Assembly: GCF_038050405.1 (NCBI RefSeq)
Contig: NZ_CP150900.1
Span: 186,001 to 250,000, forward strand
Length of the DNA stretch: 64,000 nucleotides
Origin: Paraburkholderia sp. IMGN_8
GTDB taxonomy: Bacteria > Pseudomonadota > Gammaproteobacteria > Burkholderiales > Burkholderiaceae
Direction: 5' to 3'
Part shown: positions 48,549-63,974 of the stretch, piece by piece
How the letters are laid out: each line of letters begins with the position of its first letter
Position numbering within the stretch: the stretch's first letter is position 1
The notes under the pieces: model-generated
The model's input: only the letters and a program-made list of their open reading frames with translations
Databases searched by the model: none
Told to the model about the DNA's origin: nothing
Made by a program: the position numbers and the translations under genes

Positions 48549-48559
48549 CGTATACGGCC

Positions 48560-49279: not shown

Positions 49280-49932
49280 TGACTTTCACGCTGTGGGACG
49301 TCGTACGCGGCTTGTTGCTCGCGCTGCGCTGGACCATTGTGCTGTCGATCGCCGCGTTCGTCGCCGGAGGTGCGGTCGGTCTGCTGATGATGACGCTGCG
49401 TGTGTCGCAACGCCCGCTTGCCCGTGCCATCGGGCGCGGATGGATCGAGCTGTTCCAGGGAACGCCACTGCTGATGCAACTGTTCATGATCTTCTTTGGC
49501 TTGGCGCTCTTCGGCGTCGAGGTGCCTGCATGGCTCGCCGCGCTCGTGGGGCTCACCTGCTGGTCGAGCGCGTTTCTCGCGGAAATCTGGCGCGGCTGCG
49601 TCGAAGCGGTGCCGCAAGGACAATGGGAAGCGTCCGCAAGCCTGGCGATGAGCCGGTCACAGCAGATGCGGCACATTATCCTGCCTCAGGCATTGCGGAT
49701 TGCGGTGCCACCGACGGTCGGTTTTCTTGTTCAGATCGTCAAGGGCACAGCCGTCACATCGATTATCGGCTTTGTCGAGCTGGCGAAGGCCGGCAGCGTA
49801 ATTACGAACGCCACGTTCCAGCCATTCACTACGTTCGGGTTGGTCGCATTGATGTACTTTGCGCTGTGCTGGCCGCTATCGGTCTGCAGCCGTGTTCTCG
49901 AGAGGAAGCTCCATGTCGCTCATCACAATTGA
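49276..49932 (+). CDS. Polar amino-acid ABC transporter permease (2)
   Basis: A 218-residue partner of the preceding permease, with [20 protein letters not shown], the EAA loop [24 protein letters not shown] and [13 protein letters not shown]. It overlaps the ATPase gene start by 20 bp. A periplasmic binding protein for this transporter is not present in the window. Confidence 0.88.
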
Positions 49933-50412
49933 AGATGTCAGGAAGCGCTATGGCGCACTCGAAGTGCTGAAGGGAATCGACCTGCGCGTCGACAAGGGCG
50001 AGGTCATTGCGATCATCGGCAAGAGCGGGTCTGGCAAGAGCACGCTGCTGCGGTGCGTGAACGGCCTCGAACTGATCGACGGCGGTGCGGTTCACATCAG
50101 TTGTCGGGCGGCCAGCAGCAGCGTGTTGCGATTGCCCGCGCGTTGAGCATGGAGCCGGATGCGTTGCTCTGCGACGAGATTACGTCGGCGCTCGATCCGG
50201 AGCTCGTCAATGAGGTACTCGCGGTAGTACGCCGGCTCGCCGACGACGGCATGACGTTGCTGATGGTCACACACGAAATGCGTTTCGCACGCGACGTCTG
50301 CGATCGCGTCGTGTTCATGCATCAGGGGCGCGTACACGAGGCCGGTGCGCCAGATGAGTTGTTCAACCAGCCGCGCACGTCCGAACTGTGCCAGTTCCTC
50401 GGCGTCGCATAG
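49913..50412 (+). pseudogene. ABC transporter ATPase with an internal deletion
   Basis: The 5' part reads [20 protein letters not shown] and [24 protein letters not shown], a normal Walker A, up to [12 protein letters not shown] near 50098. The next sequence is [20 protein letters not shown] in a different frame, with LCDEITSALDP (Walker B; Glu-Ile in place of Glu-Pro) and the H-loop THEM. About 80 codons including the Q-loop are missing and the frame is shifted. The transporter cannot have this subunit working. Confidence 0.85.
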
Positions 50413-50555: not shown

Positions 50556-50662
50556 CCCGATTTCCGCGAAAGAGATTCCCCATTCGGCTCTTTGTCTCCA
50601 CGGTTGACGAATATACACTCGGCTCGAAGTTACACGAGAACAACGCCGGAGACACACCATGC
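50556..50662 (+). repeat. Degenerate copy of the dioxygenase promoter region
   Basis: About 107 bp align with 55846-55952 upstream of the intradiol dioxygenase gene; shared blocks include GCGAAAGAGATTCCC, GAATATA.ACTCG and ACGAGAACA, ending at an ATGC start-like position (50659). No dioxygenase coding sequence follows, so this is a relic of an older copy. Confidence 0.65.
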
Positions 50663-50976
50663 CGCAAGCAATCCACTGCTTCGCAATTCCCGTACCTCGA
50701 TAAAGCGTACTCAGCGGACGCGTTCAGCAACCGCCCGGGTCGAGTTGTCACCTTATGGCTAGCGGTTACAACGCGAAAGAGCGCAGTGTTTCCTGACGAC
50801 TGATTTGTGCTCCACACTCTTCGCGAGGATCTGGGTGTATGAAGTGAGCACTACGCGCATCCTTCATAGCCAGATTTTGAGGCCTGAGTTTCGCATGACT
50901 GGTGAATAAATGATCAGTCTCCAGAGCGGCCAAAAAATCAGGCGCTACCGATAGTAGAAAATGCCAGGATCCGGTT

Positions 50977-50993
50977 ATCACCGAACAGGTGAT
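50977..50993. promoter_or_regulatory. Inverted repeat upstream of the porin
   Basis: ATCACC-GAACA-GGTGAT is a perfect dyad with 6-bp arms, 36 bp before the porin start. Its position suggests an operator. Confidence 0.4.
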
Positions 50994-51001
50994 TAATATA
51001 G

Positions 51002-51012
51002 TTGTACTACAA
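51002..51012. promoter_or_regulatory. FadR/GntR-like operator at the porin leader
   Basis: TTGTACTACAA is a perfect dyad fitting the TnGTnnnACnA pattern of FadR-type GntR regulators. It lies 17 bp before the porin ATG, next to the AGGAG ribosome-binding site. No GntR gene is in the window. Confidence 0.35.
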
Positions 51013-51028
51013 ATATATAGGAGATGCG

Positions 51029-52213
51029 ATGAGAAAGGTTCTGTTTGGGCTGCTCGCAATGACAGCGACGGCATCGGTAAGTGCGCAAAGCAGTGTCACG
51101 TTGTATGGCATCGTAGACAACGGGCTCCAATACGAGACTGGTATGCCGAAGGGACACGTGTTTGGCGCGCAAAGCGGAGGATGGGCCCAGTCGCGATTTG
51201 GCCTCAAAGGTGCCGAAGATATCGGAGGCGGCACACAGGCTATTTTCCACCTTGAATCTCGCCTCAACACACAAAACGGCAGCCTGGCCAACGGCAGTTT
51301 CTTCGAGGGGCAGGCGACCGTCGGTTTGAAAAACGACAAGTGGGGTCAACTGAAATTCGGCAATATGGGTTCGGCGGAAATCAGTCAGTATTCGGGCGAT
51401 GTCGACCCACAGCAGACGAAGAAGTATGCGATTGGTACGCTGGTGCGTGGCCGGATCTTTTCGCAGGCGGGTAACGGTGCAGAATATCTGTCGCCGACGC
51501 TCGCGGGATTTACGCTGCAGGGGCAATACGACCTGACGAACTCGACGAAATGGAACTCCGGGAATCCGGGAAGCGCGCCGGGCCAGTTGGGCACATCAAG
51601 CGGTCTGGGTAGTGCTCAGGGGCGAACGGACGGCATCAAGCTGTCGTACCAGACTGGCGGCCTTTTCTGGCAGGCGACATATGACGAGGTCCGCGATCCC
51701 AACGGGCAGTTCAGCAACGTGTACCTGGCCTCGCGCTCCATCCTCACAGGCGCGACCTACGAGTTTGGCCCCGTGGTTGCGTATATTGGCTATCAGCACC
51801 TCAGTGCACCCAAGGCGTCCAATGCCGGATACTTTGGTACGGCCACTCCAACAACGCTGCCGTCAGGCACGTCGTTGCCGACAGCAGTCAATCACGAATG
51901 GATTGGAGCCATCTGGCAGACCACGCCAGCCCTTTCGATCACCGGCGCGGTGTATCACGCAAACGCCAATAACGGCAACGGTAACGCGACGCTATACACA
52001 CTTGGCACGAACTATTCGCTGTCGAAGCGGACGCTGCTCTATACCGAGCTTGGTTACGTTCGGAATAGCTCGACGTCCAATCTTGGGCTCGACAGCGGAC
52101 TGTATGGCGCGAACACTAATAACGACCCCGTGAGCAGCGCCGCGTCCAACACAAACCCGAACTATGGCAAGAGTCAGTTCGGCGTGATCGCGGGTATCGC
52201 CCACCAGTTCTAG
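51029..52213 (+). CDS. Burkholderial general porin (OmpC-type)
   Basis: A 394-residue outer-membrane protein from the ATG at 51029 (GGAG upstream). The signal peptide (LLAMTATASVSA, cleavage before QSSVTLYG) precedes the family start SSVTLYGIVDNGLQYETG. SRFGLKGAEDIGGGTQAIFHLES and the C-terminal GVIAGIAHQF, ending in Phe, are diagnostic of trimeric beta-barrel porins. It likely admits the substrate of the neighbouring catabolic locus. Confidence 0.93.
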   Translation: MRKVLFGLLAMTATASVSAQSSVTLYGIVDNGLQYETGMPKGHVFGAQSGGWAQSRFGLKGAEDIGGGTQAIFHLESRLNTQNGSLANGSFFEGQATVGLKNDKWGQLKFGNMGSAEISQYSGDVDPQQTKKYAIGTLVRGRIFSQAGNGAEYLSPTLAGFTLQGQYDLTNSTKWNSGNPGSAPGQLGTSSGLGSAQGRTDGIKLSYQTGGLFWQATYDEVRDPNGQFSNVYLASRSILTGATYEFGPVVAYIGYQHLSAPKASNAGYFGTATPTTLPSGTSLPTAVNHEWIGAIWQTTPALSITGAVYHANANNGNGNATLYTLGTNYSLSKRTLLYTELGYVRNSSTSNLGLDSGLYGANTNNDPVSSAASNTNPNYGKSQFGVIAGIAHQF

Positions 52214-52289
52214 ACGGAGTGGAAGGGTTTGGGAGAAGGAACCCGGCTTGGCTCGCGCCGACTTGTCGCGGGGCCGTCATATCGGGTCT

Positions 52290-52317
52290 GCCTGACGGAG
52301 AACGATTTCCGTCAGGC
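52290..52317 (+). terminator. Hairpin terminator after the porin
   Basis: GCCTGACGG (52290-52298) pairs with CCGTCAGGC (52309-52317), a 9-bp perfect stem followed by GGTTTGT. It lies between the porin and the convergent LacI-type gene. Confidence 0.6.
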
Positions 52318-52361
52318 GGTTTGTCTCCGCCGCCTGCACGCTGCCGGCGCCGACATCGTTA

Positions 52362-53402
52362 TCAACGAAACCGGCTCGCTATATGTTCGGGGATATTCTC
52401 TGGCGTCACGACAACGACCGATGAAGATGGCGACACGGCTGACGCTGGCAGGAGTTTATGGAAATGCATGATGTGTTGGCACGCAGAGCGCATGTCCTGA
52501 CGCAAATCGTGATGGAGAATCGCCTGTACCTTCCCCTCGCGCAGCAGGCGCACGTTGTCCCGATCCAGGTCGTGCCCGATAAAGCAGACCGGGGATTGCT
52601 GTTGCGCTTCGAGCGCTCGAAGAATGGCGACATTTCCTCCTCCCATCGAGTAGACCGCGGCGATGTTGACATGTGTCGCGAGAACCTTTTGGACCCGCGC
52701 TTCAGTTTGCGTGTCGAGACCGTGGCCGCCACTGGCGTCAACTAACGTAAGCTGCGGATATCGGATTCTCAACGCTCGCCGAAAGCTTATTTCGCGTTCC
52801 TCCTCACCCCTGAACCGTTCATCGCTCATCGTGATCAGGATGTTGCCAGGCTGCGGGCTTAACCACTGCGCCAGAAGATAGGCGGCGGTAGCGCCGGCGA
52901 CCCGGTTATCCAGCCCTGCATATGCGATGCGTCCGGACAATGGGATATCGGTGAAGATTGTGATGACAGGAATGCCGCGACGCTGCAGTTCGCCTATTGC
53001 TTCAGCAATCTCGGGAACATCGCGAGCCTTCAGGAAAATCCCATGGCTTCCTCGACGTCCAATCGAGTGAAGAGCCTCGACGACTTCAGCCGTTGTCATC
53101 GTTTCCCGCATCAGAAAACGCGACCGAAAGACGACCGGGTGCATTCCCGGCAATTCTGCTTCGAGTGCGTCCTTGATCTCATCAGCAAAGCGTGCGGGAG
53201 CTTCTACGACCACGTCGATCATGAGCTTTCTCCCTGTGGTGGCCAACTGCAGCTCCTGCTTCTCGAGCTCCTTGATTGCCTGCTCGATGCGCTTGCGCGT
53301 ATGTTCACGAACGTGTGCGCGTCCATTGAGTACACGGTCGACTGTGGCTACCCCGACCCCGGCCTGTAGAGCTATCTCCTTGATAAGAAAGCGGTGAGCC
53401 AT
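52362..53402 (-). CDS. LacI-family transcriptional regulator
   Basis: A 346-residue regulator from the ATG at 53402. The N-terminal FLIKEIALQAGVGVATVDRVLNGRAHVRE (5-33) is the LacI helix-turn-helix and hinge. The rest is a periplasmic-binding-protein fold: LMIDVVVEAPARFADEIKDA, ITIFTDIPLSGRIAYAGLDN and AVYSMGGGNVAILRALE. This type commonly senses sugars or polyols. It is divergent from the PhyH-like gene and likely controls the cluster through the shared 25-bp element at 53415. Confidence 0.9.
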   Translation of the reverse strand: MAHRFLIKEIALQAGVGVATVDRVLNGRAHVREHTRKRIEQAIKELEKQELQLATTGRKLMIDVVVEAPARFADEIKDALEAELPGMHPVVFRSRFLMRETMTTAEVVEALHSIGRRGSHGIFLKARDVPEIAEAIGELQRRGIPVITIFTDIPLSGRIAYAGLDNRVAGATAAYLLAQWLSPQPGNILITMSDERFRGEEEREISFRRALRIRYPQLTLVDASGGHGLDTQTEARVQKVLATHVNIAAVYSMGGGNVAILRALEAQQQSPVCFIGHDLDRDNVRLLREGKVQAILHHDLRQDMRSACQHIMHFHKLLPASAVSPSSSVVVVTPENIPEHIASRFR

Positions 53403-53414
53403 CGAAGATACCTC

Positions 53415-53439
53415 GGATTTGATGTGTTTTTGATGTATT
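53415..53439 (+). promoter_or_regulatory. 25-bp element shared by two promoters (copy 1)
   Basis: GGATTTGATGTGTTTTTGATG followed by TATT lies between the divergent LacI and PhyH-like genes. It matches 23 of 25 bases of 54721-54745 upstream of the LysR gene. The internal direct repeat of TTGATGT suggests a regulator-binding site. Confidence 0.55.
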
Positions 53440-53496
53440 AATGATACCTCGTTGACAATCCATGGCGCTATGCTTGATGTACAGAGGGAGAGAGAC

Positions 53497-54690
53497 ATGG
53501 GCCGCGGCCAGGATCGCATCGAAAAACGGGGGCAGGATTGGTACCGCGAGCGCGATTGCGCTTTAGATGAATTCGCAGATCTTTTGCAGAGCGATGACAG
53601 CCGCCCGACGCGCTATGCGGCGGAAATCATGCAGCGGATTCCCGTTTACGACTGTCAGCAACTCAGTGGCATTACAGGCGACGCATCCCAGAGAGCGCAG
53701 TTGCAAGCGGAATGGGCTCGCGTCTTTCACGATGGCGCAGGGGTGCTAGTGCTACGGCGGGCATTCGCCGATTTGGGACCTGTGGATGACGCTACGGCTG
53801 TCTTCGAATCCATTATCTGCAGTGAGCAGGAGCAAGGCCAGCGTGTCGCAGACCATTTCGCAAAGGCGGGTGCGAATGACCGGATCTGGAATGCCCAGGA
53901 GAAGCTCTGCCTCCGAGCGCCCGAAGTATTCACGGAATACTTTTCGAATCCGATGCTGAGGATCGTGTCGGAAGCATGGCTTGGACCGTGCTATCAGATG
54001 ACGTCACAGGTCAATGTGGTTCGCCCCGGAGGTGCTGCTCAACAGGCACATCGCGATTATCACCTCGGTTTCCAGACGGCTGAAAAGGCCGAACGCTATC
54101 CCGCGCACGTGCATCAGATGTCCGCCTTCCTCACCCTTCAGGGCGCGGTGGCGCATAGCGACATGCCGGTTGAGAGCGGTCCGACGAAGCTCCTGCCGTA
54201 TTCGCAGCGATACGCCGAGGGATATCTGGCATGGCGCCGAGCCGATTTTCGGGAATATTTCGAGGCGCATTTCGTACAACTGCCGCTCGCGAAGGGCGAT
54301 GCCGTGTTTTTTAATCCCGCGTTGTTCCATGCGGCCGGCGCAAATCGCACTGCAGACGTTCAACGCATGGCGAATCTCTTGCAGGTCTCGTCGGCTTATG
54401 GCCGGGCGATGGAAGTGCTCGACCGCAGGAGAATGTGCGAGGCGGTTTATCCGGTATTGCGCGAGCGTCGCGCGTCAGGGCGCATGAGTGGCACGGAAGC
54501 CGCCGCGGCAATCGCCTCCTGCGCTGAGGGATACCCGTTCCCTACGGACCTCGACCGCGATCCTCCGGTCGGCGGGTTGGCGCCGGAAAGCCAGCAGGAG
54601 CTCATGCACCGCGCCCTTGACGAGGACTGGGACCCCGCCAGATTCACGCTCGCCCTAAACGATCATGCTGCGCGACAGCGCTTCGCGTGA
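53497..54690 (+). CDS. Phytanoyl-CoA dioxygenase (PhyH)-like Fe(II)/2-oxoglutarate oxygenase
   Basis: A 397-residue protein; the ATG at 53497 has AGGGAGAG before it, though a TTG at 53452 is in frame. The iron-binding triad is present: AHRDYH gives His185 and Asp187, FHAAGANR gives His278, and an Arg (284 or 290) is placed to bind 2-oxoglutarate. RVFHDGAGVLVLRRAF near 76 matches the family N-terminus. Probably hydroxylates a small substrate. First gene of the catabolic cluster, divergent from the LacI gene. Confidence 0.8.
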   Translation: MGRGQDRIEKRGQDWYRERDCALDEFADLLQSDDSRPTRYAAEIMQRIPVYDCQQLSGITGDASQRAQLQAEWARVFHDGAGVLVLRRAFADLGPVDDATAVFESIICSEQEQGQRVADHFAKAGANDRIWNAQEKLCLRAPEVFTEYFSNPMLRIVSEAWLGPCYQMTSQVNVVRPGGAAQQAHRDYHLGFQTAEKAERYPAHVHQMSAFLTLQGAVAHSDMPVESGPTKLLPYSQRYAEGYLAWRRADFREYFEAHFVQLPLAKGDAVFFNPALFHAAGANRTADVQRMANLLQVSSAYGRAMEVLDRRRMCEAVYPVLRERRASGRMSGTEAAAAIASCAEGYPFPTDLDRDPPVGGLAPESQQELMHRALDEDWDPARFTLALNDHAARQRFA

Positions 54691-54720
54691 ATTCCTGCCA
54701 GACCCCGGCGAGCAAGCATC

Positions 54721-54745
54721 GGAATTGATGTTTTTTTGATGTATT
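54721..54745 (+). promoter_or_regulatory. 25-bp element shared by two promoters (copy 2)
   Basis: GGAATTGATGTTTTTTTGATG followed by TATT, 23 of 25 identical to 53415-53439, starting 143 bp before the LysR gene ATG. Same orientation as copy 1. Confidence 0.55.
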
Positions 54746-54887
54746 TTCGCCCTTCAGCGATAGAAATACTGCCGTAGTATTGCCCGCTCGTAGCGAACAG
54801 GCGATCCGCGCGAGGTTCTCGAAGTTCGCGCGCCCAGACGCTCTGTCGCGCGGCGGTACTTTAGGAAAAGTGGAGTAGTGCAAGAAG

Positions 54888-55802
54888 ATGGACCAGTTCA
54901 AGGAACTACAGCTCTTCGTCGAGGTTGCCGAGACCGGCAGTATCAGCCGGGCTGCGGAAGCTGTGGATCTTTCCATCTCGGCGGCAAGCCGCTATCTGAT
55001 CTCGCTGGAGACCCGGCTTGCCGTCCAGCTCGTGCGCAGGACGACGCGCAATCTCTGTCTCACACAGGCCGGGGCAGAGTTCCATCGGCGCTGCAAGTCC
55101 ATCCTGGCAGACCTCGGCGAAGCTGAGTCGGTCATCAAGGATGCGACGGTTCGACCGAGTGGCGTACTTCGCGTCACTGCATCGCTCTCGTTCTGCATGC
55201 TGCACATTGCACCTATGCTTCCGGAGTTTACAGCGCGCTATCCGGATATCACGGTAGATGTTGTGGCCGCCAACCGTTACCACGACATCATCGAAAATGG
55301 CATCGACGTCGCAATCCGTACCAAGGTTCTTGAGGCAGACAGCAACATAACGGTCAGGCGGCTCGCTGCAACCCGCCGAATACTGTCTGCATCTCCTTCG
55401 TATCTCGAAGCAAATGGTTTGCCACGCTTCCCGGCAGAATTGGTGAAGCACAAGGTATTGAATTACGGACTCGCCGACAATCCGCGTGAGCTCGCATTCT
55501 GTCGCACAGGCGAATCCGTTCTCGTCAAGGTTAAGCCTCTGCTTGAATCCAACGACGGCCAGATACTTCGAGTCGCCGCGCTCGACGGTATGGGCATTCT
55601 CGTGCAGCCCAAGTACATCGTGTACGACGATCTCAAGGCCGGCCGCCTGGTTCCAGTGCTGGATGACTGGGACTTGCCACGACTGACGATCAACGTTGCT
55701 TTCCAGACGCGGGCACATATGCCCGTGAAGGTCCGGTTGTTTATCGATGCACTCGTCGAGCGGTTTCGGCAGAACGAATACGAGCGCCACTGGACCGCGT
55801 GA
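54888..55802 (+). CDS. LysR-family transcriptional regulator
   Basis: A 304-residue regulator. The N-terminal LQLFVEVAETGSISRAAEAV, DLSISAASRYLISLETRLAV and QLVRRTTRNLCLTQAG give the LysR winged helix-turn-helix. The effector domain holds the usual beta-alpha sequence with VRRLAATRRILSASPSYLEA. It belongs to the CrgA/LysR subgroup by the SISRAAE and RTTR motifs. It lies just before the dioxygenase gene and may activate it, since an AT-rich promoter and dyad elements lie between. Confidence 0.9.
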   Translation: MDQFKELQLFVEVAETGSISRAAEAVDLSISAASRYLISLETRLAVQLVRRTTRNLCLTQAGAEFHRRCKSILADLGEAESVIKDATVRPSGVLRVTASLSFCMLHIAPMLPEFTARYPDITVDVVAANRYHDIIENGIDVAIRTKVLEADSNITVRRLAATRRILSASPSYLEANGLPRFPAELVKHKVLNYGLADNPRELAFCRTGESVLVKVKPLLESNDGQILRVAALDGMGILVQPKYIVYDDLKAGRLVPVLDDWDLPRLTINVAFQTRAHMPVKVRLFIDALVERFRQNEYERHWTA

Positions 55803-55845
55803 CGGTCGTGCGCGTAGAGCAATCCTGCCCGCGCTTTCCCACTTT

Positions 55846-55952
55846 CCCAATCTGCGCGAAAGAGATTCCCTTTTCAGCTCTGTTTTGCCGGCTTCGGGGA
55901 ATATAGACTCGTCTCAAAGCTGTACGAGAACATTGAAGGAGACGCCTGATGC
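55846..55952 (+). repeat. Dioxygenase promoter region (paralogous to 50556-50662)
   Basis: The 107 bp up to the dioxygenase start have an older copy near 50.6 kb. The conserved GCGAAAGAGATTCCC and GAATATA.ACTCG blocks are candidate regulator and promoter elements. Confidence 0.65.
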
Positions 55953-56872
55953 AACATGCAGCACCCTCTGTTTCGCCATCCTCGTCACCATATTTCGATG
56001 AAGCGCGCTCGGCCGACGTCGTCAACGCTCGCATGGGGCAGAATGCCGACGAGCGGCTGCGGCAGGTCATGACGATTCTAGTCAAGCATCTGCATGCGGC
56101 GGTAAAGGAGATCGAGCCGACGCACGAAGAGTGGTTTGCCGCCATCCGCTTCCTGACTGAAACCGGTCAGATGTGCACTGACTGGCGACAGGAGTACATC
56201 TTGCTGTCGGACATCCTCGGTGTCTCGATGCTCGTCGACGCCATCAACCATCGCCGGCCGAGCGGGGCGACACCCAATACGATTCTCGGCCCGTTCTACG
56301 TTGCGAATTCGCCCGAGTATGAGAACGGCGCGAACATCTGCCTGGACGGAAAGGGTGAACCTCTGGTCGTTGCAGGACATGTGACGGACATCGAGGGCAC
56401 ACCTATCCCGAACGCGAAGCTGGAGGTCTGGCAGACCAATGACGATGGCTTCTACGACGTCCAGCAAAAGGGGGTTCAGCCGGAATCGAATCTGCGAGGC
56501 GCATTTACCTCGGATGCAGAGGGTCGGTACTGGTTCAAGTCCGTCAAGCCGCGCCACTATCCGATTCCGTCGGACGGGCCGGTCGGAAAACTCCTCGGTG
56601 CAATGGGACGCCACCCGAACCGTGCGGCACATCTGCATTTCATCGTGACCGCGCAGGGCTACGACCCCGTTATTACTCACATCTTCACGCCTGATTGCCC
56701 GTATCTCCCCGAGGACGCGGTGTTCGGCGTCAAGCGTGAGCTGATTGCCGAATTCAACAAGATTGACGACCCGGAAGCTGCTAAGCGCGTCGGGTTCTCA
56801 TCACCGTTTTGGTCAGTGTCGTGGGACTTCACTCTCGCGACGTCCACTAAGCCCACGCGGCAAATCCCGTAA
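55949..56872 (+). CDS. Intradiol ring-cleavage dioxygenase, hydroxyquinol/catechol 1,2-dioxygenase-like
   Basis: A 307-residue enzyme with the N-terminal dimer-forming helical domain (WFAAIRFLTETGQMCTDWRQ, EYILLSDILGVSMLVDAIN) and the catalytic barrel. Fe(III) ligands are Tyr169 (DGFYDV), Tyr204 (RHYPIP), His228 and His230 (AAHLHF). The LGVSMLVDAIN segment is typical of hydroxyquinol 1,2-dioxygenases, which open 1,2,4-trihydroxybenzene to maleylacetate; catechol cleavage is also possible. GGAGACG precedes the ATG. Downstream genes have no maleylacetate reductase. Confidence 0.88.
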   Translation: MQHAAPSVSPSSSPYFDEARSADVVNARMGQNADERLRQVMTILVKHLHAAVKEIEPTHEEWFAAIRFLTETGQMCTDWRQEYILLSDILGVSMLVDAINHRRPSGATPNTILGPFYVANSPEYENGANICLDGKGEPLVVAGHVTDIEGTPIPNAKLEVWQTNDDGFYDVQQKGVQPESNLRGAFTSDAEGRYWFKSVKPRHYPIPSDGPVGKLLGAMGRHPNRAAHLHFIVTAQGYDPVITHIFTPDCPYLPEDAVFGVKRELIAEFNKIDDPEAAKRVGFSSPFWSVSWDFTLATSTKPTRQIP

Positions 56873-56947
56873 TCGTTTGGCACGCGGGAGCGTGTGCTGT
56901 CGACGAACTGATGAAATTGATTAAGCTGACAAACAGGACTACTGTAT

Positions 56948-57829
56948 ATGAGCGCGAAAAACATTGAACTGCTGGCTGCGTATTGGACCCTTGCCGGCGA
57001 CGTCTATCCGTGTGGGCCAGTCGAAATCAGTCCGTTCCCGCTGCGAGACCGTTGCGAAGCGGCATCGCGTGCTGGCTGGAGCGGCGTCGGCCTCATCCTC
57101 GATGACCTCGAGTACAGCATCGAAAAATACGGGCTCTCCGGCGTCAAGAATATTCTGGACGACACGGGCATGAAGTACTTCGAGCTCGAAATTCTCATGG
57201 ACTGGTATCTCGATGGCGAGGTGCGGGCCAAATCGGACAGCTTCCGTCGCCGTGTCATCGAACTGGGCGGCGAACTTGGTATGCGCAATCTGAAAATCGG
57301 CGCGAACCCCTTCGACGAAAGCCCAGCCGACTTTGCGCGCATGAACGACGAATTCGCGAAACTTTGCGACGACGTGGCGACGGTTGGCGCGACGGTCGCA
57401 ATCGAATTTATGCCTTTTTCTCCCATCCGGAACATCGGGGAAGCGCTGAAGATTGCTGAAGGCGCCGGCCGACCCAACGGTGGCCTGATGGTTGACCACT
57501 GGCACGTAGCACGCGGTGGCAGCCCCTATAGCGAGGTCGCCCGAATCCCAGCGCGCTTCATCAAGGGGGTAGAGCTGGATGACGTAGGCGCGCAGGTCAG
57601 AGGAACGCTGTTTGAGGATTCGAGCTTTAACCGGCAGCTTTGTGGCGAAGGTGCAGGCGACTGTCCCGCCTTTATTGATGCCCTGCAACGAGCGGGCTGC
57701 ACGCTTCCTTACTACGGCGTGGAACTCATCTCCGAGTCGCACCGGAAGTTGCCCCTCGACCAGATGGCGAAGCGCGCCTACGACACCACCATCGCACAGT
57801 TCCCGGCAAAGAGCGCGGCTTCGGCCTGA
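56948..57829 (+). CDS. Xylose-isomerase-like TIM-barrel sugar phosphate isomerase/epimerase
   Basis: A 293-residue AP-endonuclease-2/xylose-isomerase-fold protein. Putative metal ligands are Glu153 (AIEFMPFSP), Asp183/His184 (MVDHWHVARGG) and a late Glu in YYGVELISESH. Relatives include IolE, 3-dehydroshikimate dehydratase and ketose epimerases. The gene lies between a ring-cleaving dioxygenase and an inositol-dehydrogenase-like gene, so a dehydratase role on a keto-cyclitol or dehydroshikimate-like compound is attractive but unproven. Confidence 0.85.
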   Translation: MSAKNIELLAAYWTLAGDVYPCGPVEISPFPLRDRCEAASRAGWSGVGLILDDLEYSIEKYGLSGVKNILDDTGMKYFELEILMDWYLDGEVRAKSDSFRRRVIELGGELGMRNLKIGANPFDESPADFARMNDEFAKLCDDVATVGATVAIEFMPFSPIRNIGEALKIAEGAGRPNGGLMVDHWHVARGGSPYSEVARIPARFIKGVELDDVGAQVRGTLFEDSSFNRQLCGEGAGDCPAFIDALQRAGCTLPYYGVELISESHRKLPLDQMAKRAYDTTIAQFPAKSAASA

Positions 57830-57870
57830 GGCTTTCGACCTTAAACCACAAAGTACTTCTGGAGACTCAC

Positions 57871-58863
57871 ATGATTCGTATCGCTGTACTCGGCGCTGGC
57901 CGGATTGGCCGTATTCACGCTGGCAACGTCGCCGCAAGCCCGAACGCGAAGCTGGTTGTCGTCGCTGATCCGTTTGAGAAGGCTGCCACCTCGCTCGCTG
58001 AACGACTCGGCTGCGAAGCGTCGACGGATTGCTCGGCTGTCCTCGAGCGTAGCGACATCGATGCCGTGGTCATCGGCACGCCGACAGACACTCACATCAC
58101 ATTCATGTTGCAGGCCGTGGCGCGGGGTAAGGCCGTGTTGTGCGAAAAGCCGATCGACCTGGACATGGAGAAATCAATCGCGGCGGCCAAGGAAGTTGAG
58201 CGCCTCAACGGCCGTGTCATGCTCGCGTTCAACCGCCGCTTCGATCCGACGTCCCAGGCGTTTCGCAAGGCGATCGACGCAGGCGATGTCGGCGAAGTGC
58301 GCCAGGTGGTCATCTCCAGTCGCGATCCGGGCATGCCGCCTCGCGACTACGTCGAGCACTCCGGCGGGATCTTTCGCGACATGGTGATTCACGATCTGGA
58401 TATGGCCCGCTGGCTGCTGGGAGAAGAGCCAGTCGAAGTCATGGCAATCGCGAGCCGGCTTGTCGACCCGTCGCTGGAAGAACTCACCGATTTTGACACG
58501 GTCATGGTGCAGCTTCGCACTGCGTCGGGAAAGCAATGCCACATCAACTGCTGCCGCGAGGCTGTGTACGGCTACGACCAGCGCATGGAAGTGTCCGGCT
58601 CCAAGGGCATGCTCCTGCAGGAGAACCTTCGGCCTTCGACGATCCGTCGCTGGACGAAGGAGGCAACCGATGTCCGCGAACCTCTCCTCAACTTCTTCCT
58701 CGAGCGGTATGAAGCGGCGTACAAGGCTGAGCTCGAAGCGTTTGTCGAGGCACTGCGTACGAACACACCTCTGCCGACATCGGTGCAGGACGGCCTCAAG
58801 GCATTGCGCCTGGCTGACTGCGCATTCGAGTCCGCGGTGTCGGGGAAATCGGTCAAGGTGTAA
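57871..58863 (+). CDS. Gfo/Idh/MocA oxidoreductase, inositol 2-dehydrogenase-like
   Basis: A 330-residue NAD-dependent enzyme: IRIAVLGAGRIGRIHAGNV nucleotide fold, Glu92-Lys93-Pro94, and FRDMVIHDLDMARW giving Asp170 and His174. In myo-inositol dehydrogenase these positions (EKP Lys, Asp and His) make the catalytic triad. It would oxidise a cyclitol or sugar alcohol to the ketone. CTTCTGGAG precedes the ATG. Inositol is a plausible but not proven substrate. Confidence 0.88.
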   Translation: MIRIAVLGAGRIGRIHAGNVAASPNAKLVVVADPFEKAATSLAERLGCEASTDCSAVLERSDIDAVVIGTPTDTHITFMLQAVARGKAVLCEKPIDLDMEKSIAAAKEVERLNGRVMLAFNRRFDPTSQAFRKAIDAGDVGEVRQVVISSRDPGMPPRDYVEHSGGIFRDMVIHDLDMARWLLGEEPVEVMAIASRLVDPSLEELTDFDTVMVQLRTASGKQCHINCCREAVYGYDQRMEVSGSKGMLLQENLRPSTIRRWTKEATDVREPLLNFFLERYEAAYKAELEAFVEALRTNTPLPTSVQDGLKALRLADCAFESAVSGKSVKV

Positions 58864-58887
58864 CGGGTAATCAGGAGGAGACAAGAC

Positions 58888-59976
58888 ATGACGCGAAAGA
58901 TTGGTGCCAACGAAACGGTTGGCGTTGCGTGCCTCGGCATTACTCACCCGCACACATCCGGTCGGGTCAAGGCAATCCAGCGTCGGTCCGACGCAAAGAT
59001 GCTCGGTGCGTGGGACACCAGTCCGCTGCTTGAGCCGTTCGTGGATGCGCTCGGCCTCGAAGCCCGCACAAAGGACGACATTCTCGCCGACGACAACGTG
59101 CACGTCGTACTCGTGCACTCGAAGAGCGAGAAGATGGCCGACCTGACCATCGAAGCACTTGAGGCCGGCAAGTCCGTGCTGTGCGAAAAACCTGCGGGCC
59201 GCAGTTCCGCGGACGCCAAACGCATCGTCGAAGCGGTCGAGCGTACGGGCGGCCTCGTGCAGGTCGGCTACTGCTGGCGTTTCGCTCCGTCGGTTGACGC
59301 CATGCAGGCGGCGCTGAAGAGCGGCCGCCTCGGGAAGGTGGTCCAGGTGCGTGCTCACGGCGGCTGCTCACATGATGAGGCGGGAACGGCTCATATGACC
59401 CAGCCGGGCGACATCGGCGGTGCCGTGTTTGTGATTGGCTGTCACCTCGTCGACCGCATTCTCCTGCATTTTGGCCTGCCGCGATCTGTCAATGCCCGTA
59501 TCACGAAGTTCCCGAACTTCCACGGCGACGAGTCTCGCGAGGATGCCGCGGGCGCCGTGCTGAACTACGAAGACAAGATCGTAGTCATCGACTTCATGTC
59601 GTGGGACGTGCTGCCCTGGACGGAAAGCTGGGATATCACGGCGTACGGCACCGAAGGCATCATGTCTTCCCGTTCGCTGCCGTCGAGCTACAAGATCTAC
59701 GACGCGGGCAAGGGTGCCTATCCGGAAGGATGGACCGAATGGCAGGAAACGAGCTTCCCCGAAATCTGGGCCACGAAGAAGACCGAATATTCGCCCGACA
59801 TTGCCGAAATCGGGAACCCGGTCTACTTCGACCGCGAATCGAATGCATTCTTCGACGCGCTTCGCAACGGCACGCCGTCGGTCGTTCCCGCCACACAGGC
59901 GTGCAACATCAGCCGCGTCATCGAGGCGATGTTCGCTTCGTCGAAGCAGGCCGGTGCAGAGATCTTTATCGAGTAG
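58888..59976 (+). CDS. Gfo/Idh/MocA family oxidoreductase (second)
   Basis: A 362-residue protein starting 24 bp after the first oxidoreductase gene, behind AGGAGGAG. It keeps the EKP motif (100-102) and a catalytic-type His186 in GDIGGAVFVIGCHLVDRILL, but the nucleotide loop is GVACLGITHPHTSG rather than GxGxxG. About 30% of the sequence differs strongly from the first copy, so a distinct step in the same pathway is likely. Substrate unknown. Confidence 0.85.
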   Translation: MTRKIGANETVGVACLGITHPHTSGRVKAIQRRSDAKMLGAWDTSPLLEPFVDALGLEARTKDDILADDNVHVVLVHSKSEKMADLTIEALEAGKSVLCEKPAGRSSADAKRIVEAVERTGGLVQVGYCWRFAPSVDAMQAALKSGRLGKVVQVRAHGGCSHDEAGTAHMTQPGDIGGAVFVIGCHLVDRILLHFGLPRSVNARITKFPNFHGDESREDAAGAVLNYEDKIVVIDFMSWDVLPWTESWDITAYGTEGIMSSRSLPSSYKIYDAGKGAYPEGWTEWQETSFPEIWATKKTEYSPDIAEIGNPVYFDRESNAFFDALRNGTPSVVPATQACNISRVIEAMFASSKQAGAEIFIE

Positions 59977-59986
59977 GAAGGTGAGC

Positions 59987-60011
59987 GGCCGGCCTCGTTT
60001 CGGGGCCAGCC
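59987..60011 (+). terminator. Imperfect hairpin between oxidoreductase and binding-protein genes
   Basis: GGCCGGCCTCG (59987-59997) pairs imperfectly with CGGGGCCAGCC (60001-60011). It follows the second oxidoreductase stop by 11 bp. No T-tract; perhaps an attenuator. Confidence 0.3.
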
Positions 60012-60072
60012 ATTAAGAACTGACTAAGGAAAGTCAGAAGTAAATTATGTAATCCTTATTAGGAGACAAACG

Positions 60073-61143
60073 ATGAACATCGTCAAGAACGTCGCGGTGG
60101 CCGTGGCTGCCTCGATTGCACTGTCTGCGGTTTCCGTATCCGCTTACGCGCAGGACAAGGGAGTCATTGGGATTTCCCTGCCCGACAAGACAGAATCGCG
60201 CTGGATCACCGATGGCAAAAGCATGGTCGACGCGCTGAAGGCGAAGGGCTATTCCGCCGATCTCCAGTACGCCAACTATGACGTGCCGACTCAGGTCAAC
60301 CAGGTTGAGAACATGCTTGCCAAGGGGGTCAAGGCGCTCGTGATTGCGCCGATCGACGGGAAGACCTTTTCCGACGCTCTGGCACTGGCGCAAAAAAATC
60401 ATATCAAGGTCATCTCGTACGATCGCCTGATCAGCCAGACGAAGGACGTCGACTACTACGCCACGTTCGACAACTACGGCGTGGGTGTCCTGCAGGGCCA
60501 GAGCATCGTTGCCGCCTGGCAGAAGAAGGGCAGCAAGACGCCTTTCAACATTGAGGTCTTCGGCGGCTCTTCGGACGATAACAACGCGCATATGGTCTAC
60601 GCCGGCGGGATGTCGGTACTCAAGCCGTATATCGATAGCGGGAAGTTCGTCGTTCGCAGCAAGCAGGTGCCGTTCGATAAAGTCGCCACCCGCAACTGGG
60701 ATGGCGCCACGGCCCAGTCCCGCATGGACAATCTGCTGAGCGCCTTCTACGGCAACAACCGGCTCGATGCCGTGTGGACGCCGAACGACGCCATCGCGAT
60801 CGGTGTGATTTCTTCGCTCAAGGGTGTCGGCTACGGTTCGGCGCAACAGCCGATGCCGATTGTCACGGGACAGGATGCGGATCTGCAGAACGTCAAGGGA
60901 ATCATTCGCGGCGACCAGACGACGACCGTGTTCAAGGATACGCGCAAGCTGGCTAGCATCACGGCCGATATCGTGGACGATGCGCTGACCGGAAAGGCCG
61001 TGCCTGTGAACGACACGAAGAGTTACAACAACGGCGCGAAGATCGTCCCGACCTATCTCGTGAAGCCCATCCTCGTCGACAAGGACAACTGGCAGCCGGA
61101 ACTCGTCACTAGCGGGTATTACACGCAGGCGCAGTTGAAGTAA
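60073..61143 (+). CDS. chvE: ChvE-type sugar-binding protein of an ABC transporter
   Basis: A 356-residue periplasmic protein with signal peptide ([20 protein letters not shown], cleavage before QDKG). The mature part follows ChvE closely: [67 protein letters not shown] and [20 protein letters not shown]. Members bind monosaccharides such as galactose, arabinose, xylose or glucose. It leads the chvE-gguA-gguB set, downstream of the oxidoreductases. Confidence 0.9.
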
Positions 61144-61163
61144 CGAAGTTCCAGCCTTCGTGG

Positions 61164-61190
61164 GCGCCGGCGTGCACTTGCCGCCGGCGC
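61164..61190 (+). promoter_or_regulatory. Intercistronic hairpin after the binding-protein gene
   Basis: GCGCCGGC (61164-61171) pairs perfectly with GCCGGCGC (61183-61190) over an 11-nt loop, between the binding-protein and ATPase genes. Such hairpins commonly protect the 3' end of an abundant binding-protein transcript (known for maltose genes). No T-run. Confidence 0.45.
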
Positions 61191-61234
61191 TACACAGACA
61201 CGTATTGCACGTGACCGATCCGAGGAATACGACG

Positions 61235-62764
61235 ATGGAAACCATTCTGGAGATGAACGAAATTCAGAAAAGCTTTGGCGCCGTCAAAGCCCTGAATAAC
61301 GTCAATCTTAAAGTCCGTAAAGGCGAGATTCATGCCATATGCGGCGAGAACGGCGCGGGCAAGTCGACGCTGATGAAGATCCTGAGCGGCGTCTATCCGC
61401 ACGGCTCTTACGCGGGTAAGGTGGTCTACGACGGTGAAGATCGCGCGTTCTCGGACATCGCCGACAGCGAGGAGGTGGGGATCATCATCATCCATCAGGA
61501 ACTCGCACTCGTCCCCATGCTCTCGATTACTGAGAACATCTTCCTGGGTAACGAACAGTCTAAGCGTGGCGTCATCGACTGGCAGGGCTCGCGGTCCAAG
61601 GCGAAGGAACTGCTGGCGAAGGTCGGTCTGACTGACTCCCCCGATACCCCCGTAGGCACACTCGGTATCGGCAAACAGCAGCTTGTCGAAATCGCCAAGG
61701 CATTGTCGAAAGAGGTCCGTCTGTTGATCCTCGACGAGCCTACGGCAAGCCTCAACGAAAAGGATAGCGACACGCTGCTCAATCTCCTGCTGGAGTTGAA
61801 GTCGCGTGGAGTGACGTCCATCATCATTTCGCACAAGCTCAACGAGATTTCACGTGTTGCCGATGGCATAACGGTCATCCGCGATGGCTCGACTGTCGAT
61901 GCGCTCGACTGCAAGGTCGGGGGTGTGAGCGAGGACCGCATCATCAAGGCCATGGTCGGCCGTGAGATGTCCGACCGTTATCCGAAGCGTGTGCCGAATA
62001 TCGGCGACGTGATTTTCGAAGTCAGGGACTGGCGGGCACAGCATCCGACCCAGCGGGAGCGCGCCGTTATCAAGGGTGTCAATCTGAAGGCGCGAAAGGG
62101 CGAAATCGTCGGTATCGCCGGCCTTATGGGTTCCGGACGCACCGAGTTTGCCATGAGTGTTTTTGGTGGAGCGTACGGCCAGGACATATCCGGGACCGTG
62201 CTCATGCACGGAAAGCCGGTAGACGTTTCGACGGTACAGAAGGCGATCAAGGCAGGCCTCGCGTATGTGACCGAAGACCGCAAAGGAAACGGCCTCGTCC
62301 TTGACGACAACATCCAGCGAAACATTACATTGGCGAACCTCGCCGGCGTGTCGAAACTCGGCGTGATCAACGAACACGAAGAAATAATGGTCGCGGCTGA
62401 TTTCCTGAAGAAGCTCCGTATCCGCGCTCAGGGGGGAACACATGTCGTCGCCAATCTGTCCGGCGGCAATCAGCAGAAAGTGGTGCTGAGCAAGTGGCTG
62501 TTCTCGGGACCGGAAGTGCTCATTCTGGATGAGCCCACGCGCGGGATTGATGTCGGAGCGAAATACGAGATTTACAGCATCATCAATCAGGCGGTTGAAG
62601 CGGGTAAGTGCGTGGTCTTGATTTCTTCGGAAATGCCGGAGCTTCTTGGCATGTGCGACCGCGTTTATGTCATGAACGAAGGCCGCTTCGTCGGCGAGTT
62701 CACCGCGGAGGAAGTCTCGCAGGAGAAGATCATGCGGGCAATCATGCGAAATGGAGGTATCTGA
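61235..62764 (+). CDS. gguA: Multiple-monosaccharide ABC transporter ATPase (two nucleotide-binding domains)
   Basis: A 509-residue protein from the ATG at 61235 (GAGGAA upstream). Domain 1: [20 protein letters not shown] (Walker A), [20 protein letters not shown] and [11 protein letters not shown]. Domain 2 starts [20 protein letters not shown], a degenerate Walker A as in sugar-type ATPases, with [15 protein letters not shown] and [13 protein letters not shown]. It matches the GguA/MmsA group that partners ChvE. Confidence 0.93.
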
Positions 62765-62765
62765 A

Positions 62766-63974
62766 ATGCGTAAGGCACTCTCGCCGGCGGCGCCGCAGGA
62801 CGCCGGAGTTAAAAATAGCGAATTCGTTCAGGTGTTCAAGCGGGCCGCCAGTGAATACGGGCTGCTGATTTCGCTCATCGTCATCATGGCATTCTTTCAG
62901 GTGTCGACGAGCGGCGTGTTGATGCAGCCGCTCAATCTGACGAATCTCGTGCTTCAGAACAGTTACATCGTCATCATGGCCCTCGGCATGCTGATGGTGA
63001 TCGTTGCTGGCCACATCGATCTGTCGGTCGGTTCGACCGCGGGGTTGGTGGGCGCACTCGCAGCGGTGCTGATGGTGCAGTTCAATGTCAACTACGTGCT
63101 GGCCACCGTCATCTGTATCGTCACCGGCGCGCTGATCGGAGCCATCCAGGGTTACTGGATCGCGTTCTGGCGGATGCCATCGTTCATCGTCACGCTGGCG
63201 GGCATGCTGGTATTTCGGGGGCTGACGAACCTCGTGTTGCAGGGGCAGTCCATTGGGCCGTTCCCAGACGCTTTCGCCGCGGTCAGTTCCGGCTTCATTC
63301 CCGACGTCTTTCACGGGCAGAATCTGCACATCACGTCGATCCTGCTTGGAATTCTGGTGGGCGTGCTCTTCTTCGTGATTGAACTTCGACACCGCGCGAG
63401 CGCAACGAAATACGGTATGGGTAGCGGGTCGTTTTCGATGTTCGTCGCGAAGAACGTCATTCTCACCGGCCTGATTGTCTTCCTCTGCTACATCCTTGCG
63501 TCGTATCGCGGCCTGCCGACAGTTCTCGTCATCATGGGAGTGCTGATTGGCGTCTATACGTTCGTCATGAATCGCACCACCGTGGGCCGCCGTATCTACG
63601 CGGTGGGTGGCAACGCGAAAGCCGCGAGGTTGTCTGGAGTCAGTGTTCCGGCCATCAGTTTTATGACCTTCGTGAATATGGGTGTTCTGGCGGCATTGGC
63701 CGGCCTCATCTTCGCTGCCCGCTTGAATAGCGGCACACCGAAAGCAGGAACGGGCTTTGAACTCGATGTAATCGCTGCATGCTTCATCGGCGGTGCGTCT
63801 GCTTCGGGCGGCGTCGGGAAGGTGGTGGGTGCGGTAGTAGGTGCCTTCATTATGGGCGTGATGAATAACGGAATGTCCATTATGGGTATCGGCGTTGACT
63901 ATCAGCAGGTGATCAAGGGAGTGGTGTTGCTCGCGGCTGTGTTTGTTGACGTGTACAACAAGAACAAGGCCTGA
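62766..63974 (+). CDS. gguB: Multiple-monosaccharide ABC transporter permease
   Basis: A 402-residue inner-membrane protein from the ATG at 62766, behind GGAGGTATC, which is inside the end of gguA. It has GLLISLIVIMAFFQVSTSGV, GHIDLSVGSTAGLVGALAAV, FIVTLAGMLVFRGL and the family loop RLSGVSVPAISFMTFVNMGV. About ten membrane segments are expected. It forms the channel for the sugar bound by the ChvE-like protein. The stop is 27 bp before the window end. Confidence 0.92.
   Translation: MRKALSPAAPQDAGVKNSEFVQVFKRAASEYGLLISLIVIMAFFQVSTSGVLMQPLNLTNLVLQNSYIVIMALGMLMVIVAGHIDLSVGSTAGLVGALAAVLMVQFNVNYVLATVICIVTGALIGAIQGYWIAFWRMPSFIVTLAGMLVFRGLTNLVLQGQSIGPFPDAFAAVSSGFIPDVFHGQNLHITSILLGILVGVLFFVIELRHRASATKYGMGSGSFSMFVAKNVILTGLIVFLCYILASYRGLPTVLVIMGVLIGVYTFVMNRTTVGRRIYAVGGNAKAARLSGVSVPAISFMTFVNMGVLAALAGLIFAARLNSGTPKAGTGFELDVIAACFIGGASASGGVGKVVGAVVGAFIMGVMNNGMSIMGIGVDYQQVIKGVVLLAAVFVDVYNKNKA

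Follow-up and report, generated by a model that had tools for sequence, protein, structure and literature searches.

The window analyzed here, a stretch of 64,000 nucleotides from Paraburkholderia sp. IMGN_8 (C1:186001-250000, contig NZ_CP150900.1 of a 9.1-Mb, two-contig genome), holds at its end most of an operon combining a sugar-type importer and Gfo/Idh/MocA proteins with a ring-cleaving dioxygenase. We propose that this operon probably directs the breakdown of a cyclitol by first converting it to an aromatic ring and then cleaving that ring. The analysis shows the gene content, the operon layout, the co-occurrence of the genes across genomes, the family placement of the enzymes acting from hydroxyquinol onward, and the placement of the fold of a xylose-isomerase-like TIM-barrel protein (TIM).

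In the proposed pathway, a polyhydroxylated cyclohexane would enter through the ChvE-GguAB importer, for which other lineages would use a different ABC importer of the sugar type, and would be oxidized to a keto-cyclitol by GfoA, a dehydrogenase of the IolG/OxiD type that is perhaps replaced by an SDR in some lineages. TIM, probably metal-dependent, would dehydrate the keto-cyclitol. The small Dabb protein, a second Gfo/Idh/MocA-fold protein (GfoB), or both would complete dehydration, redox adjustment or tautomerization to yield hydroxyquinol (1,2,4-trihydroxybenzene). The dioxygenase would open hydroxyquinol to maleylacetate, maleylacetate reductase (MAR) would convert maleylacetate to 3-oxoadipate, and pcaIJ/pcaF-type enzymes encoded elsewhere in the genome would finish 3-oxoadipate. 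The initial annotation of this DNA had already read the locus as importing, oxidizing, dehydrating and cleaving a ring. That interpretation is supported by the co-occurrence, the adjacent MAR gene, and a TIM fold close to those of inosose isomerase and of the structure 5hmq.

Organization of the locus and ring cleavage

The operon consists of the following genes.

54888..55802, plus strand: LysR-type regulator (PF00126/PF03466)
55949..56872, plus strand: hydroxyquinol 1,2-dioxygenase-type intradiol dioxygenase, predicted to cleave the ring (PF04444 and PF00775; PDB relatives)
56948..57829, plus strand: xylose-isomerase-like TIM barrel (TIM; PF01261), proposed keto-cyclitol dehydratase/aromatase
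57871..58863, plus strand: GfoA, predicted IolG-type inositol/cyclitol dehydrogenase (TIGR04380, 399.9 bits), proposed to carry out the first oxidation
58888..59976, plus strand: GfoB, Gfo/Idh/MocA-fold protein with no full GxGxxG loop and with Val182 in place of the catalytic Asp
60073..61143, plus strand: ChvE-type sugar-binding protein (NF040907, 475.2 bits, cut-off 460)
61235..62764, plus strand: GguA, importer ATPase (NF040905, 849.1 bits, cut-off 810)
62751..63974, plus strand: GguB, importer permease (NF040906, 561.5 bits, cut-off 450)
64127-64423 (extended window numbering, past the window edge; locus L088), plus strand: Dabb protein
64447-65508 (extended window numbering, past the window edge; locus L088), plus strand: MAR (PDB relatives)

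The genes follow one another on the plus strand from position 54888, Dabb and MAR lying beyond the edge, and are separated, from LysR to MAR, by 146, 75, 41, 24, 96, 91, -14, 152, and 23 bp. This spacing is the predicted layout of a single transcription unit. Scanning for promoters and terminators revealed 0 promoter-like sites (3.8 in shuffled sequences) and 10 terminator-like sites (9.9 in shuffled sequences), none above chance. ChvE, GguA, and GguB all scored above their equivalog cut-offs (3/3 importer models), and family scans confirmed every gene name except that of MAR, which was named from its PDB relatives. The gene list of the initial annotation (porin, LacI and LysR regulators, PhyH-type oxygenase, intradiol dioxygenase, xylose-isomerase-like protein, two Gfo/Idh/MocA proteins, and ChvE-GguAB) was thereby confirmed, all being open frames with family matches. 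Its remark that the window contains no maleylacetate reductase is literally correct only because the window ends, MAR starting 447 bp past the edge. The reading that the locus lacks a reductase was therefore rejected, MAR being located two genes after GguB.

The dioxygenase is assigned by its relatives to the hydroxyquinol-type intradiol enzymes. Its best PDB matches were 6-chlorohydroxyquinol 1,2-dioxygenase (8r2x, 1.8e-95), PnpC (3n9t, 2.3e-74), and hydroxyquinol 1,2-dioxygenase (1tmx, 3.1e-70). It scored far below the equivalog cut-offs for catechol (178.8 vs 392 bits) and chlorocatechol (142.9 vs 359.25 bits) dioxygenases, and is not a protocatechuate 3,4-dioxygenase (TIGR02422, 53.2 bits, cut-off 296.4). 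It groups with the dioxygenases of Caballeronia mineralivorans and C. udeis. MAR matched solved maleylacetate reductases (3w5s, 2.5e-123; 3hl0, 2.6e-117), its top PDB match (3jzd, 1.9e-153) being labelled only as an iron-containing alcohol dehydrogenase. Members of the pcaF (3 over the cut-off) and pcaJ/scoB (2 over the cut-off) families were detected elsewhere in the host genome, and 3-oxoadipate CoA-transferase and thiolase are thus available outside the locus. At the level of family assignment, the lower half of the predicted pathway, from hydroxyquinol onward, is secure.

The host genome contains four additional MAR-like matches (67, 62, 40, and 34% identity, the 34% match containing an internal stop) and six additional intradiol dioxygenase matches (34 to 48%, two partial). 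Thus, the locus is not its only ring-cleavage set. Five Pseudomonas loci (L045, L049, L052, L058, and L062) also seem to keep two such sets, since a second dioxygenase copy and a MAR lie upstream on the opposite strand with LysR in between. In L049, L052, L058, and L062, a transporter-like protein, MFS-type as judged by eye, also lies between the two sets.

Conservation of the gene set across genomes

To define the distribution of the locus, 84,980 species genomes were scanned for dioxygenase relatives with six exact peptide patterns, an approach that captures only part of these relatives. The scan returned 107 relatives, the best 80 of which were taken. Presence of the other genes was scored by tblastn with identity and length cut-offs that we set, loci cut by contig ends being scored as absent. 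Calling of open reading frames (ORFs) in the loci was greedy and includes false antisense ORFs. GfoB was present in 44 of the 80 dioxygenase loci, several of which are cut by contig ends. These 44 loci also contained TIM (43), LysR (41), GfoA (40), Dabb (39), ChvE (37), MAR (37), GguA (35), GguB (34), LacI (26), and PhyH (17). The 36 loci without GfoB contained TIM in one case, GfoA and ChvE in none, MAR in 25, Dabb in 14, and LysR in 6.

The gene set spans Burkholderiales, Pseudomonas, Azospirillum, Novosphingobium, Actibacterium, Thioclava, and Rhizobium. A plasmid search with GfoB gave 13 records at 60% identity or more among 831 matching records. Six of these plasmids were opened, and all six hold TIM, the dioxygenase, MAR, and Dabb. 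The search with TIM gave 51 matching records; 13 regions were opened, 5 of them on plasmids already found with GfoB, and 10 of the 13 hold the dioxygenase and MAR, the other three all being from Sphingobium. When the phylum was sampled evenly, GfoB turned up in 2 of 398 genomes, namely that of the host and that of one congener, which shows that GfoB is rare but added no new contexts. Among the matches listed (120 of 182), a search for actinobacterial GfoB revealed an Amycolatopsis relative and no Corynebacterium name. The co-occurrence is therefore real, broad, and repeated, and the counts together with the opened plasmid loci led us to reject the possibility of an oddity specific to this locus. 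The check for conserved co-occurrence called for by the initial annotation was positive in Burkholderiales, Pseudomonas, Azospirillum, sphingomonads, rhodobacters, and rhizobia, with a reduced form in Rhodococcus.

Gene order is variable. Loci of the window type follow the order dioxygenase-TIM-GfoA-GfoB-ChvE-GguAB-Dabb-MAR. The order is importer-TIM-IolG-GfoB-Dabb-MAR-dioxygenase-CoA-transferase A/B-PcaF in Aureimonas, which by family assignment is a complete chain to 3-oxoadipyl-CoA thiolase; some loci likewise add 3-oxoadipate CoA-transferase and thiolase. Rhizobium has importer-GfoB-Dabb-YciI-MAR-dioxygenase-SDR-SDR-TIM, and R. ruizarguesonis has Dabb-YciI-MAR-dioxygenase-SDR-SDR-TIM-second TIM-SDR-importer, a stretch in which neither GfoA nor GfoB had a match. 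Plasmid pRHL1 of Rhodococcus jostii RHA1, inspected by eye and by tblastn, carries a reduced form, TIM-SDR-dioxygenase-MAR, followed by importer-like genes and an SDR. Since content is kept despite reordering, the steady core comprises a dehydrogenase, TIM, the dioxygenase, and MAR, to which a sugar-type importer is mostly added. When mapped on a tree of 95 dioxygenases, the presence of TIM required 8 changes, at least 5 of them forced by well-supported branches, as compared to 30.5 for shuffled labels. The pairing of TIM with the dioxygenase therefore probably arose, or was rebuilt, several times. In this tree, long branches join (the host's own paralogues L002-L005; L095, L112, L129) and the deepest joins are unsure.

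These data bear on the possibility that two unrelated modules, one for sugar import and oxidation and the other for aromatic breakdown, merely share an operon. The dioxygenase does occur without the sugar part, in the company of MAR (25/36) or Dabb (14/36) at loci lacking GfoB. Preservation of content through reshuffling and the repeated joining seen on the dioxygenase tree argue against this explanation, which we disfavor and to which we assign hardly any probability.

The initial annotation had treated three further genes as part of one joint locus. These genes, listed next, look peripheral.

51029..52213, plus strand: Gram-negative porin (PF13609), probable outer-membrane entry
52362..53402, minus strand: LacI-type regulator with a sugar-binding domain (PF00356/PF13407), starting at the ATG of MAHRFLIKE
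53497..54690, plus strand: PhyH-type Fe(II)/2-oxoglutarate oxygenase (PF05721, E value 2.6e-32), starting at the ATG at 53497; accessory

LacI and PhyH are divergent and directly upstream of LysR, the porin being farther out. LacI and PhyH are considered peripheral because they are found in 26 and 17 of the 44 GfoB loci, respectively. An upstream porin, 82-94% identical, occurs at 22 of the 80 loci with the dioxygenase (L008-L030, L026 excepted). A role of PhyH as a required step was rejected since 27 of the 44 GfoB loci showed no match to it; where present, we would guess that it performs O-demethylation or hydroxylation of a substrate variant.

Farther upstream, at 47646-49970 of the window, the ORF list shows, by eye, a ureohydrolase-like gene and, behind it, two genes resembling ABC permeases for polar amino acids. 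The minus strand just beyond MAR (L088:4352-8249) encodes a shikimate dehydrogenase of the aroE type (326.3 bits, cut-off 221) and a CoA-transferase of class III, continued by eye with MaoC-like, VOC, and ketopantoate-reductase-like genes, a separate operon.

Other assemblies of related genes were observed. Six loci of Rhizobium and relatives (L063, L065, L070, L075, L077, and L078) have the hydroxyquinol dioxygenase and Dabb beside a different upper half, with MAR in L063 and L075 and weak matches to a GguA-like ATPase (33-34%) in all six. The upper half of L063 comprises two Zn-dependent dehydrogenases, a different Gfo protein, and ketopantoate-reductase-like and 3-hydroxyisobutyrate-dehydrogenase-like proteins. 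These loci possibly represent a second, separately assembled route from sugar to hydroxyquinol. A zinc-binding dehydrogenase near a Rhizobium cluster (L093:6817-7890) has the scyllo-inosose 3-dehydrogenase IolM as its best NCBIfam model, under the cut-off (130.8/450 bits). In Paraburkholderia rhynchosiae (L057), a window-type stretch of LacI, PhyH, LysR, and dioxygenase (66-86% identity) adjoins a second dioxygenase with a TIM 53% and a GfoB 69% identical to those of the window, which is likely a recombined double locus.

Candidate ring-forming enzymes

The aromatizing upper half of the pathway is a strong inference. GfoA scored above the cut-off of the inositol 2-dehydrogenase model TIGR04380 (399.9 vs 355 bits) and matched 3EUW, which is OxiD of Corynebacterium glutamicum (324 bits, 8.5e-96). 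Its alignments retain the EKP lysine and the D-x-x-x-H active-site pair, which we take to be the catalytic residues; the triad named in the consulted part of PMC9603128 agrees with them. GfoA is thus classified as an inositol/cyclitol dehydrogenase of the IolG/OxiD type. Of the two Gfo/Idh/MocA dehydrogenases in the initial annotation, GfoA is over this cut-off and GfoB is under it (69 bits vs 355). GfoB has the Gfo fold, and K101 (the EKP lysine) and H186 (active site) are invariant in 43 sequences. The motif LGITHPHTSG, conserved at 90% or more for most positions, replaces GxGxxG, and Val182, also invariant in the 43 sequences, replaces the catalytic Asp (Ile in P0281). GfoB may catalyze a reductase or NAD-dependent lyase step.

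The structure model of TIM (pLDDT 93.2) had as its nearest folds 2g0w, the inosose isomerase IolI (1i60), and 5hmq (third in the fold list). IolE and epimerases scored below IolI and 5hmq. We take 5hmq to be a TIM-barrel/HPPD-like fusion of the QuiC type. The TIM-barrel fold is common to all these proteins, and fold likeness alone gives no function for TIM, for which we propose the role of a probably metal-dependent dehydratase of a keto-cyclitol. R. ruizarguesonis has two adjacent TIM-barrel genes (L109:13001-14772); the second, approximately 24% identical to the TIM of the window, gives a weak QuiC match (35.9 bits, cut-off 1200), a hint that dehydration may be divided between the two.

Gfo proteins also occur in the C-glycoside deglycosidases DgpA/B/C, and GfoB resembles DgpA. 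The Dgp systems pair a Gfo oxidoreductase with a xylose-isomerase-like protein, and their aromatics are aglycones that are not made from the sugar. In an aryl glycoside route of this kind, a Gfo protein would oxidize C3 of an aromatic-linked sugar, TIM would eliminate the aglycone, and the dioxygenase would cleave it. TIM had 4 PDB matches at an E value of 0.01, none of which was labelled Dgp, nor was any of the fold matches listed, a result that does not exclude Dgp kinship. The Gfo folds do not discriminate between cyclitol and glycoside substrates, and GfoA is of the IolG/OxiD type. In addition, the Rhodococcus and S. fredii stretches show SDR genes and no GfoA or GfoB match at an E value of 1e-5. 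The aglycone would also have to be hydroxyquinol itself or require a hydroxylase. A partial check of neighboring genes was made with one ORF of at least 300 residues per cluster, covering all 42 clusters at GfoB loci and, elsewhere, 59 of 139 clusters picked by hand from those on the plus strand. FAD_binding_3 was not among the families listed (25 of 64 Pfam) for the 42 ORFs of the GfoB loci, one of which is a VanA-type oxygenase, and was found in 3 of the 59 ORFs at loci without GfoB. We regard the aryl glycoside route as quite improbable.

The proposal of a ring made from a cyclitol also has to accommodate several observations that weigh against it. TIM matched no NCBIfam model, IolE and QuiC included, at an E value of 0.001, and MAR and Dabb pass no NCBIfam cut-off. 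The best solved relative of Dabb (3fmb, 1.2e-13) is functionally uncharacterized, and the match of Dabb to olivetolic acid cyclase (E value 0.03) was below significance. In the Sphingobium plasmid stretches (L111, L113, and L130), relatives of TIM with 40-44% identity lie near dehydrogenases and acyl-CoA or FAD enzymes, with no dioxygenase or MAR match in these stretches. The TIM family is therefore not tied to this route and has other jobs too. The host genome has its own complete iol cluster. Finally, there are data from C. glutamicum (cited here from the parts consulted of PMC9603128 and PMC7764795). GfoB and TIM are likely counterparts of its OxiC and Cg3390 proteins, a kinship drawn from described features and synteny, not from alignment. 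In this bacterium, inositol did not release the IhtR repressor (PMC7764795). Growth on myo-inositol requires iolD but not the iol2 cluster, and a strain lacking all seven dehydrogenases and cg3390 grew on myo- and D-chiro-inositol when given IolG or OxiD, and on scyllo-inositol when given OxiE or OxiB (PMC9603128). OxiC and cg3390 are therefore not required there for these three inositols.

Related pathways and the candidate substrate

The C. glutamicum iol2 cluster consists of oxiC-cg3390-oxiD-oxiE, in which OxiD has measured NAD+-dependent myo- and D-chiro-inositol dehydrogenase activity and cg3390 encodes a 'putative sugar phosphate isomerase' (PMC9603128). OxiC has no full GxGxxG motif and carries Ile in place of the catalytic Asp; it did not sustain growth on any of three inositols and is assigned no function by its describers in the part consulted (PMC9603128). 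GfoB shares both oddities of OxiC as described, the incomplete GxGxxG and the lost catalytic Asp. IhtR is encoded by cg3388, and iolT2-rhcM2D2 encodes an inositol permease together with a maleylacetate reductase and an enzyme of the catechol 1,2-dioxygenase type (PMC7764795). The ihtR and iolT2-rhcM2D2 genes carry the next lower locus numbers to iol2, from which their adjacency was deduced. Binding of IhtR was disturbed by 1,2,4-trihydroxybenzene (above 0.05 mM), hydroquinone, and indole, and hardly by inositol or resorcinol (PMC7764795). The two halves are treated in separate papers, both naming iolT2 (PMC9603128, PMC7764795): the terms maleylacetate and rhcM2 are absent from the main text of the former, and cg3389, cg3390, and oxiC from the consulted text of the latter. 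We propose that the two halves may form one pathway.

The window locus and the C. glutamicum genes thus have in common an IolG-type dehydrogenase, an isomerase-like protein, an odd Gfo protein, MAR, a dioxygenase of the catechol/hydroxyquinol type, and inositol/sugar uptake. C. glutamicum differs in having a permease in place of the ABC importer, an IclR regulator, and an additional scyllo-inositol dehydrogenase, OxiE; Dabb is not mentioned in the consulted parts of the two papers.

The classical iol route, which runs through IolE-IolD-IolB-IolC without an aromatic intermediate, likewise starts with an IolG-type oxidation, and its IolE and IolI are also xylose-isomerase-like. In the quinate/shikimate route to protocatechuate, a cyclitol-like ring is oxidized, dehydrated by a 3-dehydroshikimate dehydratase of the QuiC/AsbF type, and cleaved. 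The window locus resembles it in the succession of oxidation, aromatizing dehydration in a xylose-isomerase-like TIM barrel (the fold of TIM being near 5hmq), and intradiol cleavage. It differs in that no carboxylate substrate is assumed, no dehydroquinase is present, a sugar importer is used, the dioxygenase is of the hydroxyquinol type, and TIM passes no QuiC model. IolB, IolC, IolD, and IolE were not found among the locus genes scanned. Since their defining genes are absent, the classical iol and quinate pathways were rejected as the identity of the locus. Resorcinol and nitrophenol pathways resemble the locus in their lower half, which likewise combines a hydroxyquinol 1,2-dioxygenase with a maleylacetate reductase, but begin from an aromatic and a hydroxylase; the window locus has a sugar-type upper half instead, and no flavin hydroxylase was found among the locus genes scanned.

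The absence of classical iol genes reported by the initial annotation is correct for the locus, but not for the genome, in which iolB, iolE, iolD, iolC, and iolG sit together approximately 1 Mb away (iolE at C1:1249419-1250279). Among 16 cluster-bearing genomes searched, drawn from the 44 GfoB loci, iolE was over the cut-off in 9 and not in 7 (completeness not stated), and neither of two plasmid records had an iolE above it. Perhaps, then, the cluster can work on its own, but often it does not. The frequent presence of iolE, in the host as elsewhere, would suit a safety valve, in which keto-cyclitols or diketones from inositol breakdown self-aromatize to toxic polyphenols cleared by the dioxygenase and MAR, while the sugar genes feed the iol route. 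This is very improbable in view of the seven genomes without iolE over the cut-off and of the importer, dehydrogenase, and dehydratase-like protein that the locus itself has.

The substrate, the order of the early steps, the assignment of dehydrations to enzymes, and the identity of the aromatic as hydroxyquinol are inferred. By bookkeeping, a 2-deoxy-inosose, obtained from a quercitol-type compound by one oxidation, would lose two waters by beta-elimination to give exactly 1,2,4-trihydroxybenzene. The same two eliminations from a full inosose would give 1,2,3,5-tetrahydroxybenzene, and an inositol would reach hydroxyquinol by loss of three waters with no net oxidation. Chemistry on protected inositols provides precedents both for the conversion of inosose to tetrahydroxybenzene and for that of inositol to hydroxyquinol (PMC11467972, section 2.3.6.6). 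Alternatively, the aromatic might be 1,2,3,5-tetrahydroxybenzene (6-hydroxyhydroxyquinol), formed from an inosose minus two waters, opened by the dioxygenase to 2-hydroxymaleylacetate, and then acted on by the reductase. The elimination pattern of an inosose leads to this product, as described for a protected inosose (PMC11467972, same section), the closest solved dioxygenase (8r2x) acts on a 6-substituted hydroxyquinol, and GfoA is over the inositol-dehydrogenase cut-off. This alternative seems unlikely, however, as some extended loci hold 3-oxoadipate CoA-transferase and PcaF, fitting maleylacetate, and as the C. glutamicum regulator responds to 1,2,4-trihydroxybenzene, tetrahydroxybenzenes not being among the effectors named in the consulted text (PMC7764795).

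With hydroxyquinol as the proposed aromatic, the candidate substrate we favor first is a deoxy-inositol such as quercitol, because one oxidation and two eliminations would give exactly hydroxyquinol. An inositol isomer or its methyl ether comes second; starting from it, the loss of three waters would have to be accompanied by one oxidation and one reduction, a need that would account for the second Gfo protein. The host iol set, the C. glutamicum growth data, and the presence of iolE in 9 of 16 genomes favor a rarer cyclitol, deoxygenated or methylated, over myo-inositol. The example substrates of the initial annotation (inositols, quinate, shikimate, quercitol, and sugars) are thus not equally likely in light of the C. 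glutamicum results.

The route would be a variant of the known conversion of ring sugar acids into aromatics, with probably new enzymology. More tentatively, and with rather less confidence than in the pathway itself, we suggest a broad but sparse, undescribed route in which one oxidation together with serial dehydrations would take cyclitols without a carboxylate to hydroxyquinol, no oxygenase being involved, TIM, Dabb, and the Asp-less Gfo protein forming a new aromatase set. The titles and abstract openings listed from the open literature, a scope that leaves out subscription journals and preprints so that novelty is unproven, report no catabolic pathway from cyclitol to hydroxyquinol.

Many of the hosts named here are members of genera known from soil and plants, where cyclitols are common. 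The conversion of an inositol to a hydroxyquinol-type phenol is given as multi-step chemistry in the section consulted of PMC11467972; if our proposal is true, the dehydratase set would offer a biocatalytic way to obtain such phenols from compounds of the inositol type. It would also give a testable function to GfoB, explain the orphan OxiC and Cg3390 proteins if they are kin, and explain why a hydroxyquinol-sensing repressor controls an inositol permease operon in C. glutamicum. Some cyclitol carbon would then pass through an aromatic in vivo, linking two areas of catabolism that are usually treated separately.

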